Positions 52,907 to 63,176 of a stretch of 64,000 bases of DNA are shown one piece after another. The stretch comes from a bacterium. GTDB taxonomy: Bacteria > SAR324 > XYD2-FULL-50-16. Below the pieces are notes generated by a model. It had not been told where the DNA came from. It ran no database searches and saw only the letters and a list, made by a program, of their open reading frames with translations. Numbering within the stretch: position 1 is the first letter of the stretch; every line of letters begins with the position of its first letter. The stretch is from the NCBI GenBank assembly GCA_024275165.1, contig JAJRZQ010000006.1:62001-126000 (forward strand), given 5' to 3'. The translations under genes were made by a program, and so were the position numbers.

Positions 52907-54468
52907 GAGGAAAGAGGGTACAGGTTAAAGACCTGATCGGTCATTAAAAGTAAATCCAAAAAAGTCTTTTCATAGGCAATCAAAGCTTGATTCAGCCGCA
53001 TCTGGGCTTCGGCTAAATCCTGCTGGGCTAAGGCAACACGAAAACTGGTGGATTGACCCACTTTAAATCTTGCCGAGGCCTTGCCATAGAGTTCTTCGTT
53101 GAGTCGCACCCCGGTTTGGGCTAAGCGAATCGCCTCTTCATTTAAACGCAGCGTTTGCAAAAGCGAGTAAAAGTTCACCTCGGTCACTGCTTTTTGATTT
53201 TCCAATTGCAAAATGATGCGCTCCCCTTCCAACTCCGCCTTAATGCGTTTGCGCTGCCCTTGATGGTTAAAAAGAGGAACTTGCCAAGTCAAGGCCACTT
53301 GGTAATCCACCGCGCCTTGCTTGCTCACGCCTCTGGCCGCCTCAGAGGCAAAGGTGCCATACCCATTTTGTTGGTACTTCAGGCTCAAATCCAAGTTGCT
53401 GGAATCTGCGTTATTTGCCTCTTGCAAGTCCAACTCATTCAAACTGATTCCCGCCCGCAATAGCGCCAAATCCGGGTCTTGTTGCAAAGCCCGGGCTAAA
53501 AGCTTATCTTCGGGCAAAGGCAGGGGTTTGATCTGCGGTTCTTCCTTCGCCCAATACTCTAGTTTTAAATTCCTTAAGTCTAAAAAGACCTTGATTTGAT
53601 CCTCAATCAAGCGCTTTTTGGTTATTTCCGTTAAGAGTTCTTGCTCTGCCAAGGCCAATTGAGTCTTTGCCTGGGTCACCTCGGTGGGGTCTAGGGCCCC
53701 TAAGCGAAACTTCGTTTCCGCCTCCTTTAAGACCCGGTTCGCCAATTCTTTGGCAGAGGCTCTGACCTGAATGTTTTTCTGCGCCGCGACCAGATCCCAA
53801 TAGGCCCCTCCCACTTGACGCAACAAGGCTCGATTGGCTTTTTGCTCTCGGTGTTGCGCCTGGATAAACAAGGCCTCACCCCGGTATTCAGGGAGGTAGC
53901 CAATGGAGCCGAAATCTTTCAACAAAGGTAATTTCATCTCCGCGATCCAGCTATCGGCAATATAGGCATCATCCAGGGCGATAAATTTACTCAAAGGTTG
54001 ATCCGGCGAAGTAAAATAAGCGATAAACCCTTTTCTGCTGGCCCTTTGATAGGTCAACCCATAACTCAAACCCCATTTGGCCTTTTGACTAAATCCGGTA
54101 CTGGCGATGACGGAATCGTTTCTGGAATAGGGCAACCCGGAAGCCTTAGAACTCACAAAACTGGAAGAAAGCAGGTTGCCGCTACGGGTATTGACCACTT
54201 GATTGCTCCAGGTCAAGGGATTCATCGCCTGCTGCTCTTGCCAGTCGCGCAAGGCCTGCTTGGTTTCAATGGAGGAAATTTTATACCCCGTCGCTCGCTC
54301 CACCGTCAGGGCTAAGATCTGGCCCAAACCCACGGCAAGCTTTTTCTTCCCCTCAATGACAATCTGGCTCAAGCCTTTCGGCAAAGCGGGATTAAATTCC
54401 GCCTTCAAGCCCTCCGCGCTCAAAAGCAGGCACCCCAAACCAAGGAAAAGCCCCCGCAATGCTTTCAT
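52903..54468 (-). CDS. TolC-family outer-membrane efflux protein
   Basis: Outer-membrane channel of 521 residues for the RND system. The signal peptide is MKALRGLFLGLGCLLLSAEGLKAE. The two repeated helical halves show the family pattern, for example QVGGAYWDLVAAQKNIQVRASAKELANRVL followed by EAETKFRLGALDPTEVTQAKTQL, then RFKVGQSTSFRVALAQQDLAEAQMRLNQ near the end. It is a little longer than usual at the N-terminus. It overlaps the TetR gene and the adaptor gene by 4 bases each. Confidence 0.93.
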   Translation of the reverse strand: MKALRGLFLGLGCLLLSAEGLKAEFNPALPKGLSQIVIEGKKKLAVGLGQILALTVERATGYKISSIETKQALRDWQEQQAMNPLTWSNQVVNTRSGNLLSSSFVSSKASGLPYSRNDSVIASTGFSQKAKWGLSYGLTYQRASRKGFIAYFTSPDQPLSKFIALDDAYIADSWIAEMKLPLLKDFGSIGYLPEYRGEALFIQAQHREQKANRALLRQVGGAYWDLVAAQKNIQVRASAKELANRVLKEAETKFRLGALDPTEVTQAKTQLALAEQELLTEITKKRLIEDQIKVFLDLRNLKLEYWAKEEPQIKPLPLPEDKLLARALQQDPDLALLRAGISLNELDLQEANNADSSNLDLSLKYQQNGYGTFASEAARGVSKQGAVDYQVALTWQVPLFNHQGQRKRIKAELEGERIILQLENQKAVTEVNFYSLLQTLRLNEEAIRLAQTGVRLNEELYGKASARFKVGQSTSFRVALAQQDLAEAQMRLNQALIAYEKTFLDLLLMTDQVFNLYPLSS

Positions 54469-55082
54469 GTTTCCTGCTCGATCAATTGCCCGACGAGCAA
54501 AGTCAAAATCTCCTTAGCCCCTTGCTCCGCGTTCATAAAGGGGGAGTGGGCTCCATAGAACCGCCGCTGGTTGATCATCCCTTCCCGCAATAGAGAAAAA
54601 CCGAGCAATACCCTTTCTAGCCCTTGGGGCTCTAGGGGTTTTTGAAAATAACTTTGCAAATCCACTCTCATCTGTTGAATCATGCTTTTTTTAAACTCTT
54701 GGACCTGCTTGCGAAAGGATTCATCGCGCTGTACCCGCTCTAAAATAGCGATATAGCCTTCGCCTTGTTTATCCATCACCTGCTTTACGCTAAAATCAAA
54801 GGCCGCCCGCAGGTATTCGCTCGCGGTATTGCAGCGTGCTTGTTGAAAGATTTCCAGCTTTTTTTCCACCTGTTCTTTCATGCTGAACATCAGCACTTCA
54901 TCCACCCCGGAAAAATGATGATAGAGGCTCGACTGGCTGACCCCGGCCTGGGCGGCGATCCCTCTGGTGGTCAGTTTGTCGATCCCTACCTTTTCAATCA
55001 GCACCTGCGCCGCTGCCAAGATGCGTTTGCGGGTTTTCTCCCCCTGTTTTTTGCGTTGATCCTTCATCCCTTTCCTTTCCAT
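54465..55082 (-). CDS. TetR/AcrR-family repressor of the efflux operon
   Basis: A 205-residue regulator. The N-terminal DNA-binding helices read TRKRILAAAQVLIEKVGIDKLTTRGIAAQAG, then VSQSSLYHHFSG, the recognition helix. The C-terminal ligand domain is all-helical. An internal ATG at 55067 has a better ribosome site (AAAGGAAAGGG) than the first, so the protein may begin MKDQRKKQGEK. It is first in the operon and overlaps TolC by 4 bases, so it is made with the pump it likely represses. The dyad at 55118-55129 is its probable target. Confidence 0.93.
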   Translation of the reverse strand: MERKGMKDQRKKQGEKTRKRILAAAQVLIEKVGIDKLTTRGIAAQAGVSQSSLYHHFSGVDEVLMFSMKEQVEKKLEIFQQARCNTASEYLRAAFDFSVKQVMDKQGEGYIAILERVQRDESFRKQVQEFKKSMIQQMRVDLQSYFQKPLEPQGLERVLLGFSLLREGMINQRRFYGAHSPFMNAEQGAKEILTLLVGQLIEQET

Positions 55083-55281: not shown

Positions 55282-55833
55282 ATGAAGACCTATATCTACC
55301 TCTTAGTCGGATTGAGTTTTTTTGGATTCTCCCCCCTCTTGCGCGCGGAACTGCCGCCCGTATTGGACATCTTACGAGTCGAAAAAATACAAGAAATCAA
55401 AAAATTGCTGCAAACCGAGCTGGGAACCCAGGATTTTCAAGTCCAATTAAACTGGCAGGCCACCACCCGCAGCGCCCCAGCCAAACCCTCTTGGAAAATC
55501 AAAAAAATCAATGGAGATTACCCCAAAGAGGGGCGATTTTTGCCGAAGGAAACCGAGATTTTAGGCGATACTCAGTTTATTTTGCGCAAACAAGAGGCAA
55601 ATATTTCCATCCAAACCCGCTTGAGCCAAGAAAAAGCCGCAAAACTCCAAAGCCAAATCAAAACACTTTTAGTTCTCAACAACAAGCGGGGGGACCAGCT
55701 TCACCTGAACTTCAAACTACGCCCCGCTGTTCCCGTAGCCAAAGCGAAAGCCCCCAGCCTGACCCCTGAAGAAGCGGTCTTACTAGAGGCAAAGGCGCGG
55801 TTGAACTCGGCCCCGAAACCCTGCAAGCCCTAG
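55282..55833 (+). CDS. FliF-like periplasmic domain protein (N-terminal part of a frameshifted gene?)
   Basis: A 183-residue product from the ATG at 55282. The signal peptide is MKTYIYLLVGLSFFGFSPLLRA. A compact domain then reads EIKKLLQTELGTQDFQVQLNW, and a later helix-strand unit (QIKTLLVLNNKRGDQLHLNF) has the RGD-x-L-x-V layout of the last periplasmic part of flagellar FliF. FliF has a membrane helix next; here the frame ends at TAG 55831-55833. The reading frame one base back continues through a membrane helix into a FliG-like domain. I infer one original gene broken by a one-base loss between 55770 and 55833. Confidence 0.65.
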   Translation: MKTYIYLLVGLSFFGFSPLLRAELPPVLDILRVEKIQEIKKLLQTELGTQDFQVQLNWQATTRSAPAKPSWKIKKINGDYPKEGRFLPKETEILGDTQFILRKQEANISIQTRLSQEKAAKLQSQIKTLLVLNNKRGDQLHLNFKLRPAVPVAKAKAPSLTPEEAVLLEAKARLNSAPKPCKP

Positions 55834-56021
55834 CCCATGCAACCCCTGAGGCACAAACAACCTCACCCAACCCAGCGCTGCAACGGCTGAAAGCAATCTT
55901 TTCTTGGAAGAGCCTAGCCCTCTTCGCCTTCTTTCCCCTGATTTTTTGGATTCTACGCAAAAACCGTCCAGCGCCCCAAAAATCCGGCACCACCGCAGAT
56001 AAATTTAAAACCAAGGCACCT

Positions 56022-56882
56022 ATGGAACTGATCCAACGCATTGAACGGGCAGACCAATTAGCCCAAGAACAAGACCTAGCCCCAATGGAAAAAATGATTG
56101 CCTATACCGGGGATATGGAACTAGATTTAGATTATGAGATCAACCTGGAAATGGATGAGGTCATTCTCGCCGCGGAACAAGCTTTAACCGAGGCCGAGAA
56201 GCTACGAGAAGAAAAAAACCCCTTAGACCTACAAACCGCTTTAAAAAGCACGGAAGAAGAGCCCAGCAGCGTGGATTTTTCTTTTTTAAACCGGCTAGAA
56301 ACACCCGCCCTTACCGAGCTGTTTGCCCAAGAAACCCCGCTCGTGCGGGCCTTGATCATCAGCCGCTTGAGCCTGCGCAAGGCCGAAGCGATCTACGCCT
56401 CCATCAAGCCCCAAGAGCGCTTTGAAGTGGTTTGGGAATTAGGGAACCTCCACCTCTTAAAGCAGGACGAAAAAACAGCTCTCTCCCTAGAGCTCCAGGT
56501 CAAAGCCAACCAGCAGGGGAGCGAAAAATTAAGGCTAGTCAGCGCGCCCCAGAGCGAGGTATTCTTAGACGACATCTTTACCGATCCCTTAACGCTGGAT
56601 GAACTCTCTAAATTGAGCCGCCCCCTTTTGGTAGAAACAGCCCATCGCATGAACTTAGAAGATTTAATGATCGCCTTAAGCCATGCGCCCAAGGTTTTAA
56701 AAGAACGCATGGTCGCTGCCTTAGACAGCGCCAGACGAATCGAGTTTTTACAAGGAGTTCAAGGCCTGCGAGCCGACTTAGATGACAGCATGGAGCGCCA
56801 ACAGATTCTCTTAGATACGGCTCAGGCCATTCTAGACGAGCAAAAGGCAACCCGTTCAGCCATTGATTTAAAACAAGCATGA
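56022..56882 (+). CDS. FliG-like domain protein (C-terminal part; open frame from 55770)
   Basis: From the ATG at 56022 the product is 286 residues; the open frame runs back to 55770. Before the ATG it encodes a membrane helix (WKSLALFAFFPLIFWILRK). The protein then holds an acidic helical linker and two FliG-like units. FLNRLETPALTELFAQETPL followed by VRALIISRLSLRKAEAIYAS resembles the FliG middle domain. The segment RPLLVETAHRMNLEDLMIAL, with KERMVAALDSARRIEFLQGV, resembles the FliG C-terminal domain. The charged torque-helix pattern of true FliG is not conserved. No flagellar gene is nearby. It overlaps the barrel gene by 4 bases. Confidence 0.65.
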   Translation: MELIQRIERADQLAQEQDLAPMEKMIAYTGDMELDLDYEINLEMDEVILAAEQALTEAEKLREEKNPLDLQTALKSTEEEPSSVDFSFLNRLETPALTELFAQETPLVRALIISRLSLRKAEAIYASIKPQERFEVVWELGNLHLLKQDEKTALSLELQVKANQQGSEKLRLVSAPQSEVFLDDIFTDPLTLDELSKLSRPLLVETAHRMNLEDLMIALSHAPKVLKERMVAALDSARRIEFLQGVQGLRADLDDSMERQQILLDTAQAILDEQKATRSAIDLKQA

Positions 56883-57880
56883 AATTAAGCTTTCCCCTCC
56901 TCCTGCTCATGGCAGCGGGGTGGAGCCTGCCCCTCCTCGCTCAGGTGGCAACCGCCCCCTTGGATTCGAGTTTAGAAATCCGCATGCCCCAAGCAGCAAG
57001 CTGGCGCTTTGTCAAAGCGGGAAACGAACAAGACGACAACCGTACCGCCACCTTGGCCGGGGTCACCTTCAACGGCAAGGGAGAAAGCGACAACCAGCAA
57101 ACCGACTGGGAAACAAGCGGCAAATCTTTCCTCCTCATTGCCCAGACCGAAAATGTCAATATCGAGGCCTACAACCGCACCAGTCTAAAAACCACCATCA
57201 ACTTTCAGGCCTATGACTGCACCCGCGTTGACGACATTCCCCTCTGCGGCACCGGCAAGGTAACCCAAGATCGGGTCGAAAACCGGCTCGGCTTTTCCCT
57301 CAAGGCCAAGGGGGCCAGCTACGGCGCAAGCTACAACACCGAAGAATTCTCTTGGGCCAACTCCAGCCCCTATAAACGACAAAGCTACGCCTTAGGCGGC
57401 ACCTGGCAGTTTGGCAAGGTCTTGTTTGCCTCCCTAGGGCTAGAGCGGGTCACCCAATCGAATCTCTACCTCCCCACCCTGAACTGGAACAACCAAATCT
57501 GGGCTTTTGGGGTCATGGCAGGCAACCCGGAGGAGACACAATTAAGATTGGAGTATGCCGGGATCACCAGCCCGGAAAAAAATAAAACCGATGACTTGGG
57601 CAGAACGCAGCGCCACCAAGGAGAGCAAAAAAGCCTGCTCAGCGCGGAAGTCAAAATGCAGGGGATTTTATTGCACTTTCGCAAAGAAACAACCCGTTAC
57701 CTCACCGCGACCTACTGGGGGGAGCAAAGTCGCAGCCGCAGCATAATGGGCCTCGGTTGGGCCCCCAGCAACGGCATTATCGCCTCTGCCCAAGCTTATA
57801 CCGATCACTATCAAATCTCCACCAGCCAACCCGACCAAGTCGCCAAATCCTTGCGGCTTTCTGTAGGTTATAATTTCTAA
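56879..57880 (+). CDS. Predicted outer-membrane beta-barrel protein
   Basis: A 333-residue exported protein with signal peptide MKLSFPLLLLMAAGWSLPLLAQ. The rest is rich in alternating amphipathic strands with aromatic girdles (SYALGGTWQFGKVLFASLGLE, RYLTATYWGEQ, IIASAQAYTDHYQIST). It ends in NF after SLRLSVGY, a typical C-terminal Phe signal for barrel insertion. Two Cys (YDCTRVDDIPLCG) could form a loop disulfide. Its start overlaps the FliG-like stop by 4 bases (ATGA), so the two are translated together. The family is unknown. Confidence 0.75.
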   Translation: MKLSFPLLLLMAAGWSLPLLAQVATAPLDSSLEIRMPQAASWRFVKAGNEQDDNRTATLAGVTFNGKGESDNQQTDWETSGKSFLLIAQTENVNIEAYNRTSLKTTINFQAYDCTRVDDIPLCGTGKVTQDRVENRLGFSLKAKGASYGASYNTEEFSWANSSPYKRQSYALGGTWQFGKVLFASLGLERVTQSNLYLPTLNWNNQIWAFGVMAGNPEETQLRLEYAGITSPEKNKTDDLGRTQRHQGEQKSLLSAEVKMQGILLHFRKETTRYLTATYWGEQSRSRSIMGLGWAPSNGIIASAQAYTDHYQISTSQPDQVAKSLRLSVGYNF

Positions 57881-57892
57881 AAAGCTTATCCC

Positions 57893-58552
57893 CTACTCCT
57901 CTTGGTGGCGTACAATAACGCCCTCCACCAAGTAAATCACATCTTCGGCGATATTGCAGGCTAAATCCCCAACCCGCTCCAAATAGCGAGAAAGCGAAGG
58001 GAGCTGGATGATCACATCAATCCGGTCTAAGCTTCGTTTCATCTCCTCTTTAACCACCTCATAAACAGCGGCGTGGCGATCATCCACCTCATCGTCTTGA
58101 GCGATCACCTCACGGGCCTTATTCGGGTCCATTTCAATCAAGGAATCCAGCGCTTTAGAAAGCATTCCTTGGGCAATATCCGCCAGCCCAATCAAATCAA
58201 AGGGAAACTTACCCGCCTCGAGGCGATGCAGGTCAATAATCCGCTCTGCCATGTTGACGCTAAAATCGTTGATCCGTTCCAACTCATTGTTGATCTTTAA
58301 GATGGCCACCACAATGCGCAAATCAATCGCTACGGGCTGGTGCAAGGCGAGGGTTTTTAAGCATTCTTCTTCAATATCGATCTCCATCTGATTGATGATC
58401 TCTTCTTCTTGCTCAATCAAGCGCTTGGCTTCGGATACATCCAAACGATCTACGGCAACCACGGCGTCATGGACATTTTGCTCCACCTTGGCACCCATCT
58501 CCAGAATCATTTTCTTTAATGATTCAATCTCTTTGTGTATATGTATACTCAT
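57893..58552 (-). CDS. phoU: Phosphate transport regulator PhoU
   Basis: A 219-residue helical protein with two repeated PhoU three-helix bundles. Metal/contact motifs appear as LIEQEEEIINQMEIDIEEE and AQDDEVDDRHAAVYEVV. It links the Pst transporter to the PhoR sensor and damps phosphate uptake when phosphate is plentiful. It is the last gene of the pst operon, 5 bases after pstB, and convergent with the barrel gene. Confidence 0.97.
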   Translation of the reverse strand: MSIHIHKEIESLKKMILEMGAKVEQNVHDAVVAVDRLDVSEAKRLIEQEEEIINQMEIDIEEECLKTLALHQPVAIDLRIVVAILKINNELERINDFSVNMAERIIDLHRLEAGKFPFDLIGLADIAQGMLSKALDSLIEMDPNKAREVIAQDDEVDDRHAAVYEVVKEEMKRSLDRIDVIIQLPSLSRYLERVGDLACNIAEDVIYLVEGVIVRHQEE

Positions 58553-59338: not shown

Positions 59339-60946
59339 CTAAAAAGCTTTCGCTTGGTATCTCTTGCGTATCTTATTGCGCAAAATAATGCTGGTACTAG
59401 AAAGAAGGATCACAATGCTCAAGAGCAATAAGGTCGTCACAAAAACCATGGGTTTTGCCGCCTCCACATTGGGCGACTGAAAACCGACATCATAGATGTG
59501 AAAACCCAAGTGCATAAATTTGCGTTCCAAATGAATAAAGGGAAAAGTCCCGTCAATCGGTAAAGCAGGGGCGAGTTTCACCACCCCGGTGATCATCAAG
59601 GGGGCCACCTCCCCCGCGGCGCGGCTCATGGCTAAAATAAACCCGGTGATAATCCTCGGGCTCGCCATGGGCAGGGTCACCTTCATCAAGGTCTGAAACT
59701 TCGTGGCCCCCAAGGCGAGGCTGCCGTGGCGCACATCGGAGGGCACCCCGCCTAAGGCCTCTTCGGTGGCGACAATCACCACCGGTACGGTCAATAAAGC
59801 CAAGGTCAGGCTTGCCCATAAAATTCCCCCCGTACCAAATGTGGGGGTGGGCAATTGTTCGGGATAAAAAATCTGATCTATCCCTGAACCAATCGTATAG
59901 ATAAAAAAGCTTAACCCGAAAATCCCCCAGACAATACTGGGAATCCCCGCCAAATTATTGACCGCAATGCGAATGGTCTGCAACAAAAACCCGGGGCTAG
60001 CGTATTCCTTCATGTACACGGCCGCCACCACCCCCATGGGGAAGGAGAAAAGGCTCATGGTCAAAACCAGCATCACCGTACCGATAATCGCGGGGAAAAG
60101 CCCTCCTTCCGTATTGGATTCCCTCGGCTCGTCGAAAAAGAGTTCCCACAAATGGGCAAGGTAATGGGAAAGCTTGGCAAAAAGCCCCATTTGGTTGGGT
60201 TGGTATTGGCGAACAACATGGGATAAGGGTAGGGTTTTTGTGGTGCCCTCGGCGTCTCGCAGTAATACTTGGTATTGCGACAAAACCGTATGCTGCTTCC
60301 CTTGAGCCTCTAAAAGCAAATCAAAATGTTCCCTTAAAACTCGTTGTTCCGCCTCGATTGCGGCATGATTTTCCCCCTCGTATTGGGCTTTGAGAATTTT
60401 TCGCCTCAAGGACTCCATCTCGACTGCGACGCTCTTAATCTCCTCATTCAATCGAGCTAAAACCTGCACCTCTTCGGTAAATGAAGGCTCAATCCGCTCT
60501 AAGACATTGGGCCCTTGAACCGGCTCTGCGCCGGTAAGCGGACTTTGATAGCCTTGGATAAAGCCGTAAAAGTTCCCGTATTCCGTCCGTTCAATCGCTA
60601 CCGCTTCTTTCGGATAGGTGATCCGCGAGATCGTTTTAGACTGAATCCATTTAAAGTCGAGACTATATAACTCTCGATTGCCTACCTTAAGCTGAATCCG
60701 TTCCTCACCCGTATGGGGGTGCAGGGTGGTTTGCTTGATCTCGCCGAGATAATACTCCCCTGAGTTGGTTTCAACCAAGGCTAAGGAATGGGGCCAGAAG
60801 GCGACAAAGCCGTTTTTCACAATCACAAACAAGAGCGTACCGATGATCAACAAAATCATACCGACTCCGATTGAGCTAAGCCAGATAAAGGCCTCGCCCT
60901 CGCGCCAAAACCTACCTTTGACGATCCCGGGGTTAGAATTGAGCAT
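59339..60946 (-). CDS. pstA: Phosphate ABC transporter permease PstA (long form)
   Basis: A 535-residue inner-membrane permease. The C-terminal half is the standard PstA domain: [22 protein letters not shown], the loop segment [28 protein letters not shown], and [13 protein letters not shown]. Before it, after a first helix, is a periplasmic domain of about 230 residues including a helical stretch ([20 protein letters not shown]). Long PstA and PstC occur together in many Gram-negative bacteria. The start overlaps the pstC stop by 14 bases. Confidence 0.95.
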
Positions 60947-63176
60947 AACGCTTCCTTAAGGCACTCCGCACTATCTCAGCGAGGCTATTGATAACAAAGG
61001 TAAAAGCGAACAAAATCACGGCCGATAAAAACAGTACTCGGTAGAGGGTTCCGTCCACCGGGGCCTCGGGAATCTCTACCGCTATATTGGCCGACAAGGT
61101 ACGCATCCCATTAAAGGGACTGAGGTCAATAATCGGGGTATTCCCCGTGGCCATTAAAACAATCATGGTCTCCCCAATCGCTCGCCCCATGCCTAAAATC
61201 ACACCCGCAAAAATCCCCGGGCTGGCGCTGGGCAAAAGCACTTTCCACAGGGTTTGCCACCGACTGGCCCCCAGGGCTTGACTGGCGGCCTTTAAGCTAG
61301 GGGGGACACCGGACAAGGCATCATCGGTCATGGTAAAGATAAAAGGAATCACGATAAACCCCAGAGCGAACGCAATAATAATGCTGTTGCGTTGGTCGTA
61401 GTCGCTTGCTAGGTTTTCCAAAATCCAACGATGAAAATCCCCGCCAAAAAAGACCCCTTCCACCCCCGGGGCAATCAACATCGCCACAAACAAGATCAAC
61501 ACCGCCAAAGGAATCATCAACAACAACTCCCTGGATTGCTCAAACTTTTGAAAGCGTTTTTGGCAACGGAGCCTGGCCCAAATGAATAAAAAAAGCCCAA
61601 AACCCATATGCAGCAAAACCAGGTACAAAAAGAAGGTCAAAAGCCCTTGGTGAATCAAGGGGGCAAGCCATAAGGCCGCGATAAAACCGATAATAACGCT
61701 GGGCACGGCCGCGGTAATCTCTACGGTGGGCTTGACCCAAGCGCGAAAACGAGGGCTGGCAAACTCGTTGGTATAGACCGCGCCTAAAATACCTAGGGGC
61801 AAGGCAAAAAGCATGGCATACAAACTGCCTTTCAGGCTGCCGAAGATCAAAGGGGTTAGACTGAATTTTGCCTCGAAATCATCCGCGCCAGCAGAGGATT
61901 GCCAAACCAAGGCGGGCTCGTCATACCCCTCATACCAAAGCTTTTGAAACAAAGACTTAAAATTGATTTCTGGGTGCGGCGTGGAAACCGACCACAAATG
62001 CAGGCGCTTGGCCTGATCTAAAGCAAATAAACCGTTCCCCCTCGGCCCTAGGTCAAATAGTTTCAAACCGGCTAAAGCGACAAATTCCAAAAGGTGCTTT
62101 TCACTGGTTACATGATCGAGATGAACTCGACCGGTTTGATCGCGACTCAAAATCGCTTTGTGGCGCAGGCTTGTTTGAATCTCTACAATCGAGCTGCTGT
62201 GGCGTTGAAAGCGATGTACCAAGGTCAAATGTCGATTCCCGTACGGCCCGGTGACCCCGGCAAGGCTAAAAAGTTGGCCCTGAGCGTCCCCAATGGCCAA
62301 GGACTGATCCCCAAAAACCAAAGCCATCGCCGTTAAGGGATGCGGTTCCCCAAAAGGCAACACCTCGTCAACCAGCTCGGCGCTCTCTTCCCCTAAATTC
62401 CACGCGAGAACCCGCCCCTCCGCGGTATAAGCATATAACTTTTCCCCATTGCCGCTGAGGGTAAAGTTTTGAATCGGGTAGGGAGAATCTAAGATAAAAC
62501 CTTGAACCTCAGGCGCGGCTTCATCGCTATTCTCTGCCAAAAACATGGCCATGAGGTCGTCACTTTGGGCCGCCGCCCCCTTTCTTAAAATCTGCAGCCG
62601 ACCCGAGGGCAACAGAGCCGCCACCACGGCGGAGTCTTCCCCCTGGCGACCGATCACCTGGAGCGGCTGTTCTGCGAACTCGCTGGGCTCAACCTGCAAA
62701 AGGTTTTCCACCTGAGGGCGCACCACCCTTTTCGGGATTTCATCCCCTTCATAAACAGGGACTAAGGCGAGCCGATCCAAGCGAAAATCACCGGAACTCA
62801 ATAAAGAAGAAAAAAGCGTGCCTTGCCGTTCCACAAAAAGAATTTTGCGGCCCCCGACCCAGTCGGGCAAGGGATGACTTTGACTGACCTGTTCTTGAAC
62901 CAGATCGATTACAAAATAATGACCTTGATCAGAAAGCCAAAGACCCTTTTCCAGATATTCATCCAGTAAAAGGGCCATGGGTTTGCCTGCCGCCTCGGGC
63001 AAGGCGAAGCGGGTAAGCTTCGTTTGCCCGGAGCCAAAAAAGAGAGGCAGAGTCACCTCGATCAAGAGCGCGAGGATTCCAATCACACAGATTAGAATGA
63101 ATACCCCGCCAATACTTATCAGCCGTTTCGCTAAATAGTCAGCCCTCTTGTTACGCTCTAAGATCTTGCGTTCCAT
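60933..63176 (-). CDS. pstC: Phosphate ABC transporter permease PstC (long form)
   Basis: A 747-residue permease subunit. A first membrane helix (residues 17-41) is followed by about 400 residues of repeated beta segments resembling a propeller (NFTLSGNGEKLYAYTAEGRVLAWN). The permease domain follows, with IFGSLKGSLYAMLFALPLGIL and the loop DDALSGVPPSLKAASQALGASRWQTLWKVLLP. All permease motifs are intact. The large extra domain is shared with long PstC proteins of other Gram-negatives; its role is not settled. It lies 6 bases after pstS. Confidence 0.95.
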   Translation of the reverse strand: MERKILERNKRADYLAKRLISIGGVFILICVIGILALLIEVTLPLFFGSGQTKLTRFALPEAAGKPMALLLDEYLEKGLWLSDQGHYFVIDLVQEQVSQSHPLPDWVGGRKILFVERQGTLFSSLLSSGDFRLDRLALVPVYEGDEIPKRVVRPQVENLLQVEPSEFAEQPLQVIGRQGEDSAVVAALLPSGRLQILRKGAAAQSDDLMAMFLAENSDEAAPEVQGFILDSPYPIQNFTLSGNGEKLYAYTAEGRVLAWNLGEESAELVDEVLPFGEPHPLTAMALVFGDQSLAIGDAQGQLFSLAGVTGPYGNRHLTLVHRFQRHSSSIVEIQTSLRHKAILSRDQTGRVHLDHVTSEKHLLEFVALAGLKLFDLGPRGNGLFALDQAKRLHLWSVSTPHPEINFKSLFQKLWYEGYDEPALVWQSSAGADDFEAKFSLTPLIFGSLKGSLYAMLFALPLGILGAVYTNEFASPRFRAWVKPTVEITAAVPSVIIGFIAALWLAPLIHQGLLTFFLYLVLLHMGFGLFLFIWARLRCQKRFQKFEQSRELLLMIPLAVLILFVAMLIAPGVEGVFFGGDFHRWILENLASDYDQRNSIIIAFALGFIVIPFIFTMTDDALSGVPPSLKAASQALGASRWQTLWKVLLPSASPGIFAGVILGMGRAIGETMIVLMATGNTPIIDLSPFNGMRTLSANIAVEIPEAPVDGTLYRVLFLSAVILFAFTFVINSLAEIVRSALRKRYAQF

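Follow-up and report, generated by a model that had tools for sequence, protein, structure and literature searches.

Chains that join FliF to FliG have been described as laboratory-made constructs in Vibrio (PMC11481574; PDB 8z4d), and both SAR324 and FliF go unmentioned in a survey of MotAB evolution (PMC12505986). A 2016 study of SAR324 (PMC4782131) reported many flagellar motor genes and few chemotaxis genes and made a guess at gliding, and no system of the kind considered here was described. In our literature search, which was partly swamped by papers on flight, we found no paper that describes MotA together with a FliG-like protein outside flagella, and no natural FliF-FliG fusion with stators of its own. 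Here, a 64,000-nucleotide stretch of DNA (the window) was analyzed, in which the original prediction had placed a single chain of a FliF-type domain, a membrane helix and FliG domains. The locus probably represents the end of an operon in degenerate form; in other SAR324 bacteria, this operon would encode a motor that is driven by ions, spans the envelope and is assembled from parts of flagellar type.

The source genome (2.69 Mb in 47 contigs) falls among SAR324/Candidatus Lambdaproteobacteria. The fusion locus covers positions 55282-56882 of the window on the forward strand and is divided between two reading frames. Its N-terminal half (55282..55785, frame 1, in an ORF that continues to 55833) encodes a signal peptide and one ring-building domain of the FliF RBM3 type, the folded part of which closes with RGDQLHLNF. 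Frame 3, which stays open between 55770 and 56882, encodes a single transmembrane helix (about 55899..55955 in the translation, aligning weakly with the transmembrane helix of the family profile), followed by a FliG middle-domain-like segment (56310..56522; Pfam FliG_M, E = 0.0033; family profile, 5.4e-11) and a FliG C-terminal-domain-like segment (56565..56834; Pfam FliG_C, E = 0.0042; family profile, 3e-5). The secreted N-terminal domain with its RGDQLHLNF element, the membrane helix and the FliG-like segments were all found in the ORFs, in the order originally predicted. The joined reading frame that had been assumed was not found: one gene-like reading frame gives way to another near 55785, inside a zone where both are open (55770..55833), and the fusion frame in the window is really broken.

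The codon bias is gene-like on either side of the shift (0.30 and 0.31, compared with 0.21-0.35 for control genes) and is -0.48 and -0.77 in the off-frames. Apart from the frameshift, both frames are free of further stops. A programmed -1 frameshift was rejected, as no correctly phased slippery heptamer is present at the frame switch and the sole heptamer there, AAACCCT at 55816, stands in the wrong phase. A reading as two separate genes was also rejected, as the second frame offers no ATG, GTG or TTG before 56022, which is already past the membrane helix, so that the helix lacks a start codon in its own frame. The largest ATG-started ORF in this frame (56022..56882) would yield a soluble FliG-like fragment without the transmembrane helix. 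The frameshift could be an assembly error; if the decay is real, it would be recent, since the codon bias is still gene-like on both sides.

Taken alone, the window chain stays below threshold in the two Pfam comparisons given above and in NCBIfam (fliG, 0.0009). A family profile built from the alignment of 18 intact relatives matched the two pieces at 5.8e-5 (N-terminal) and 2.8e-13 (C-terminal) in a search of three sequences only, and matched the window fusion at 8e-8 genome-wide. When the two translated pieces were compared with the fusion of the closest syntenic relative, a genome of the same family (G001), they scored 163, whereas the best of 100 shuffles reached 49. Motifs that are invariant in the protein family are missing from the window fusion, and its FliG C-terminal-like segment is without the FPExxR motif of the torque-helix region.

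An outer-membrane β-barrel protein is encoded directly after the fusion (56879..57880, forward strand), starting at 56879 and overlapping the fusion end at 56882 by the 4 bases originally reported. The gene is intact, and its product has a signal peptide, long antiparallel strands and a C-terminal aromatic residue; its structure model is of low confidence (pLDDT 54), and the best PDB matches of that model are all outer-membrane barrels. On the left, the locus is bounded by a TetR regulator (54465..55082, reverse strand), and on the right by PhoU (57893..58552, reverse strand). In G001, TolC and TetR stand on the left and PhoU on the right, the whole operon begins just past the TetR ortholog, and the complete operon together with the same barrel, at the syntenic place, lies between these flanks. 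In the window, the same flanks enclose the fusion and the barrel only. Further along the reverse strand (60933-63176), a PstC-like permease of 747 aa was observed, of which the last 200 residues alone match the permease family and about 550 precede them.

The family profile detected the fusion in 27 of 52 SAR324 (Lambdaproteobacteria) genomes. In the relatives the fusion is mostly one intact frame of 590-660 aa, as in JANQGX010000045.1; some copies are truncated by contig ends, a few matches contain stop codons, and the copy in G038 is broken into pieces. Its identity is about 40-50% between relatives of genome families f1 and f3, and 50% between G001 and G003. A scan of 84,980 species, the reach of which is limited by the peptide patterns used, returned 25 fusion loci; their titles read SAR324, Lambdaproteobacteria or, for MAGs belonging to this group, a generic name (Deltaproteobacteria, Proteobacteria, bacterium). 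No fusion was found outside SAR324 in four further sets of 291, 77, 4 and 1 genomes; for the last three a strict cut-off of 1e-33 applied, which only a near-full-length fusion could pass, and the 291-genome search had the sensitivity to pick up canonical FliG, as it did in most of the 172 genomes that gave a match. In that search, the SAR324 profile found its strongest FliG match in G321; in a genome of the same family (f52) in another phylum, a FliG match (G325:C72:5813-6472) lies within an open frame of 506 aa, where 330-360 is usual.

In the relatives, the fusion is one chain comprising a signal peptide, a FliF-type ring-building domain, a transmembrane helix and FliG-like domains, which is not the soluble switch protein of about 330 aa. 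Compared with the PDB, the family profile matched solved FliG at 3e-22, and one relative by itself matched Pfam FliG_C at 2.5e-14 and FliG_M at 3.8e-11. An AlphaFold model of a 602-aa relative (20 sequences, mean pLDDT 77) shows an alpha-beta-beta-alpha-beta order of elements over residues 28-149, as in RBM-type domains, then a long membrane helix from residue 182 and an all-helical cytoplasmic part. A Foldseek search of the PDB with this model aligned full-length FliG over 308-322 columns (1e-9) and the FliF S-ring/RBM3 at 1e-3 with a probability of 1.00, and these were the sole convincing matches. The whole-model TM-scores were low, for which a different arrangement of the domains is the presumed reason. 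The family thus has the N, M and C domains of FliG, the N domain being seen in the model alone, and the RBM3/S-ring fold of FliF beside a C-terminal transmembrane helix. RBM1, RBM2 and the retained N-terminal transmembrane helix of FliF are absent, as the apparent signal peptide is followed by one ring-building domain. In the family alignment with solved FliG, the FliM-binding EHPQ motif is not kept, which accords with the absence of FliM and FliN from the operon. By our own mapping of the E. coli numbering, the torque-helix positions R281 and D288/D289 read K/Q and Ser/Thr-Ser, and the classic torque charges are not kept in the family; an F-P-E-x-x-R motif near these positions is invariant.

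These results speak directly to the idea that the protein resembles FliF and FliG by chance only, for which the sub-threshold Pfam matches of the window protein could be cited. The family profile, the structure search and the operon partners agree with one another, so that this idea is refuted for the family and is extremely improbable overall. The single-chain architecture that had been predicted is borne out: profile and structure comparison recover both folds, and the two parts are, in the relatives, one mostly intact gene and not separate, unrelated genes.

The gene order in f1 and f4 is MotA, MotB, a CsgG-like protein, a TPR lipoprotein, a ring-domain/TPR protein, a TPR protein and the fusion. 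MotAB are placed after the fusion in G013, and in a common marine genus elsewhere in the genome. When compared with the PDB, the operon MotA matched solved MotA/PomA at 2e-27, with no ExbB/TolQ-type structure among its matches, and the operon MotB matched solved MotB/PomB at 2e-16; in the latter, a plug/transmembrane part contains the ion-channel Asp region and is joined by a peptidoglycan-binding domain of the OmpA type. Such a dedicated flagellar-type pair is present in nearly all fusion-bearing relatives, and is about 30-36% identical to the flagellar-type MotAB of the same genomes. The ring-domain protein matched YscJ_FliF_C at 2.4e-4, and its own profile matched the N-terminus of the fusion at 2.9e-9; by sequence, its PDB matches were to TPR and unrelated proteins only. 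The CsgG-like protein (350-400 aa, secreted) has no Pfam match and was assigned a CsgG-like domain and a small barrel by our reading of its sequence. None of the fusion operons examined contained FliM, FliN or export genes.

Across the 52 SAR324 genomes, these components occur together. Fusion and MotA were both present in 25 genomes and both absent from 21 (fusion only, 2; MotA only, 4); for the ring-domain protein the corresponding numbers were 26 and 24 (1 and 1), and for the CsgG-like protein 26 and 23 (1 and 2). All five components were found in 25 genomes, none in 20 and a part in 7, presence being judged by eye from E-value tables and the seven part-sets being mostly incomplete MAGs. 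The barrel is more variable. Its pairing with the fusion, as originally proposed, holds for the window and G001, the only two places where this type of barrel was found; in other families, the fusion is followed directly by another kind of barrel or by none. In f4, the next gene encodes an outer-membrane protein of 400-510 aa (L033, L032, L046), FadL/PorV-looking by eye, which does not cluster with the window barrel by blast, and in f3 no barrel follows directly.

A second, divergent operon type was also observed in several genomes, for example at L120 (G011:C3), L121 (G042:C11) and L122 (G038:C4). Its MotA is about 37-45% identical to that of the first type, its MotB has an enlarged periplasmic part (with a weak Calx-beta match in L120), and it contains a transmembrane-anchored FliG_M-like protein of 543-746 aa. 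The G042 locus also has a CsgG-like homologue, and contig C63 of G042 adds further MotA, MotB and CsgG-like matches. Very large repeat-rich proteins edge this operon type (L120:1-3329 and L121:4-3135), which could be surface cargo of such a machine.

Viewed beside these operons, the window locus appears reduced. The ring-domain and CsgG-like proteins had no profile match in the window's genome (98% completeness), the dedicated stator pair is absent, with only distant flagellar-type MotA and MotB detected, and no remnants of lost genes were found between TetR and the fusion (best E, 0.84). Between the window and G001, the fusion is 25% identical and TetR 32%, and the orthologs of barrel, TolC, MFP, PhoU and RND span 34-64% (barrel, 34%; PhoU, 54%; RND, 64%). 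The low fusion identity, the lost partners and the frameshift together indicate reduction and decay: judged from these sequences, the lineage appears to have lost the stators, the ring-domain proteins and the CsgG-like protein, leaving a diverged, frameshifted fusion and the barrel, and the local machine is most likely dead or dying. The window copy would instead be a working reduced device if the frameshift were artefactual, with fusion and barrel serving as a static trans-envelope scaffold or using the flagellar MotAB. The gene-like codon bias around the shift, the freedom of both frames from other stops and the intact barrel, still 34% identical to its ortholog, are in keeping with such a device. 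We nevertheless hold it to be unlikely, given that the partner genes are gone, that the fusion identity falls well below the 40-50% between f1 and f3 relatives, that family-invariant motifs are lost, and that neither a phased slippery site nor a start codon for the transmembrane part is available. The suggestion that the chain is a scaffold rather than a motor is, for the family, probably wrong, given the dedicated MotA/MotB in nearly all relatives, and for the broken copy it is moot; the idea of an envelope-spanning device is supported.

Starting from the observed architecture, fold, co-occurrence and stator type, we infer the following course of action in the relatives. The fusion would oligomerize via its ring-building domain into a small MS-ring-like base carrying a FliG ring, and the dedicated, peptidoglycan-anchored MotAB would push this FliG ring, hung from the FliF-like ring, in a rotation or some other movement. 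The periplasmic ring-domain proteins may then pass the motion to outer-membrane proteins and thence to the cell surface, where the output might be surface movement, adhesin transport or similar. A wider proposal, toward which we lean neither way, is that SAR324 may have a rotary motor that is independent of the flagellum: MotAB would drive the natural FliF-FliG fusion ring and act through stacked periplasmic rings on the outer membrane, with no export gate, no filament, and two divergent operon types. Counting against a motor is the absence of the classic torque charges (Ser/Thr-Ser at the D288/D289 positions), despite the nearby invariant F-P-E-x-x-R. The same absence would suit a machine in which MotAB act as TolQR/ExbBD do, coupling ion flow to the pulling or opening of an envelope complex with the FliG-like part as a docking surface, and the TPR and outer-membrane-type proteins of the operon likewise suggest a transport or anchoring complex. 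This is doubtful, however, as the PDB matches of MotA are to flagellar MotA/PomA only and not to ExbB/TolQ, and as ring-building domains paired with FliG are rotor parts.

Somewhat more credible, though still tentative, is that the operon provides an extra rotor/stator set, with a second stator type and additional rings, within the SAR324 flagellum. FlhA is present in every fusion-bearing genome, the operon MotA is of the flagellar MotA/PomA type, and in one SAR324 genus fliL-N-O-P-Q stand about 6 kb upstream of the fusion operon, with a flagellin gene adjoining the dedicated MotAB (L117:5556-7166 and L142:10152-14277). Against such a role, all five genes are missing from 20 of the 52 genomes, though nearly all of these 52 have FlhA; the membrane-anchored FliG exists beside a separate canonical FliG, as checked in the window's genome; the EHPQ motif is not kept; and no flagellar gene was seen near the f1 and f4 operons examined. 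The claim that the locus lies away from flagellar genes therefore stands for the window itself and fails for that one genus, and the window's genome keeps flagellar genes elsewhere (FlhA on C17, canonical FliG on C16).

Should the parts correctly indicate what the family is, the rotor and stator of the flagellar motor can exist without its export half, which would bear directly on the evolutionary assembly of the flagellum. It would also offer a minimal FliF-FliG-MotAB system for study, and suggest a possible way for a lineage abundant in the deep ocean to move or to display proteins on its surface.

Set against known systems, the ring-building domain of the fusion resembles the RBM3/S-ring of FliF in ending with an RGD-x-hydrophobic strand followed by a transmembrane helix to the cytoplasm; it differs from FliF in having one ring-building domain and one transmembrane helix, with FliG itself as the cytoplasmic tail. 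As in FliG, the model aligns over the full FliG length, and relatives give significant Pfam matches to FliG_M and FliG_C; unlike FliG, the chain is membrane-anchored, keeps neither EHPQ nor the torque-helix Asp, and stands in an operon without FliM/FliN. The operon-specific MotA and MotB match solved MotAB/PomAB stators, yet the pair is distinct from the flagellar MotAB of the same genomes and is tied to the fusion by genome occurrence. To our knowledge, none of Agl-Glt, GldLM and ZorAB has a FliG or FliF rotor part. The Myxococcus Agl-Glt gliding motor, GldLM and the Zorya ZorAB likewise have stator homologues outside the flagellum, coupled to other machinery (PMC12505986). The engineered FliF-FliG of Vibrio has the same order of parts in one chain; that chain is engineered and flagellar, whereas the SAR324 fusion is a natural protein that is conserved across a group at the level of a phylum.
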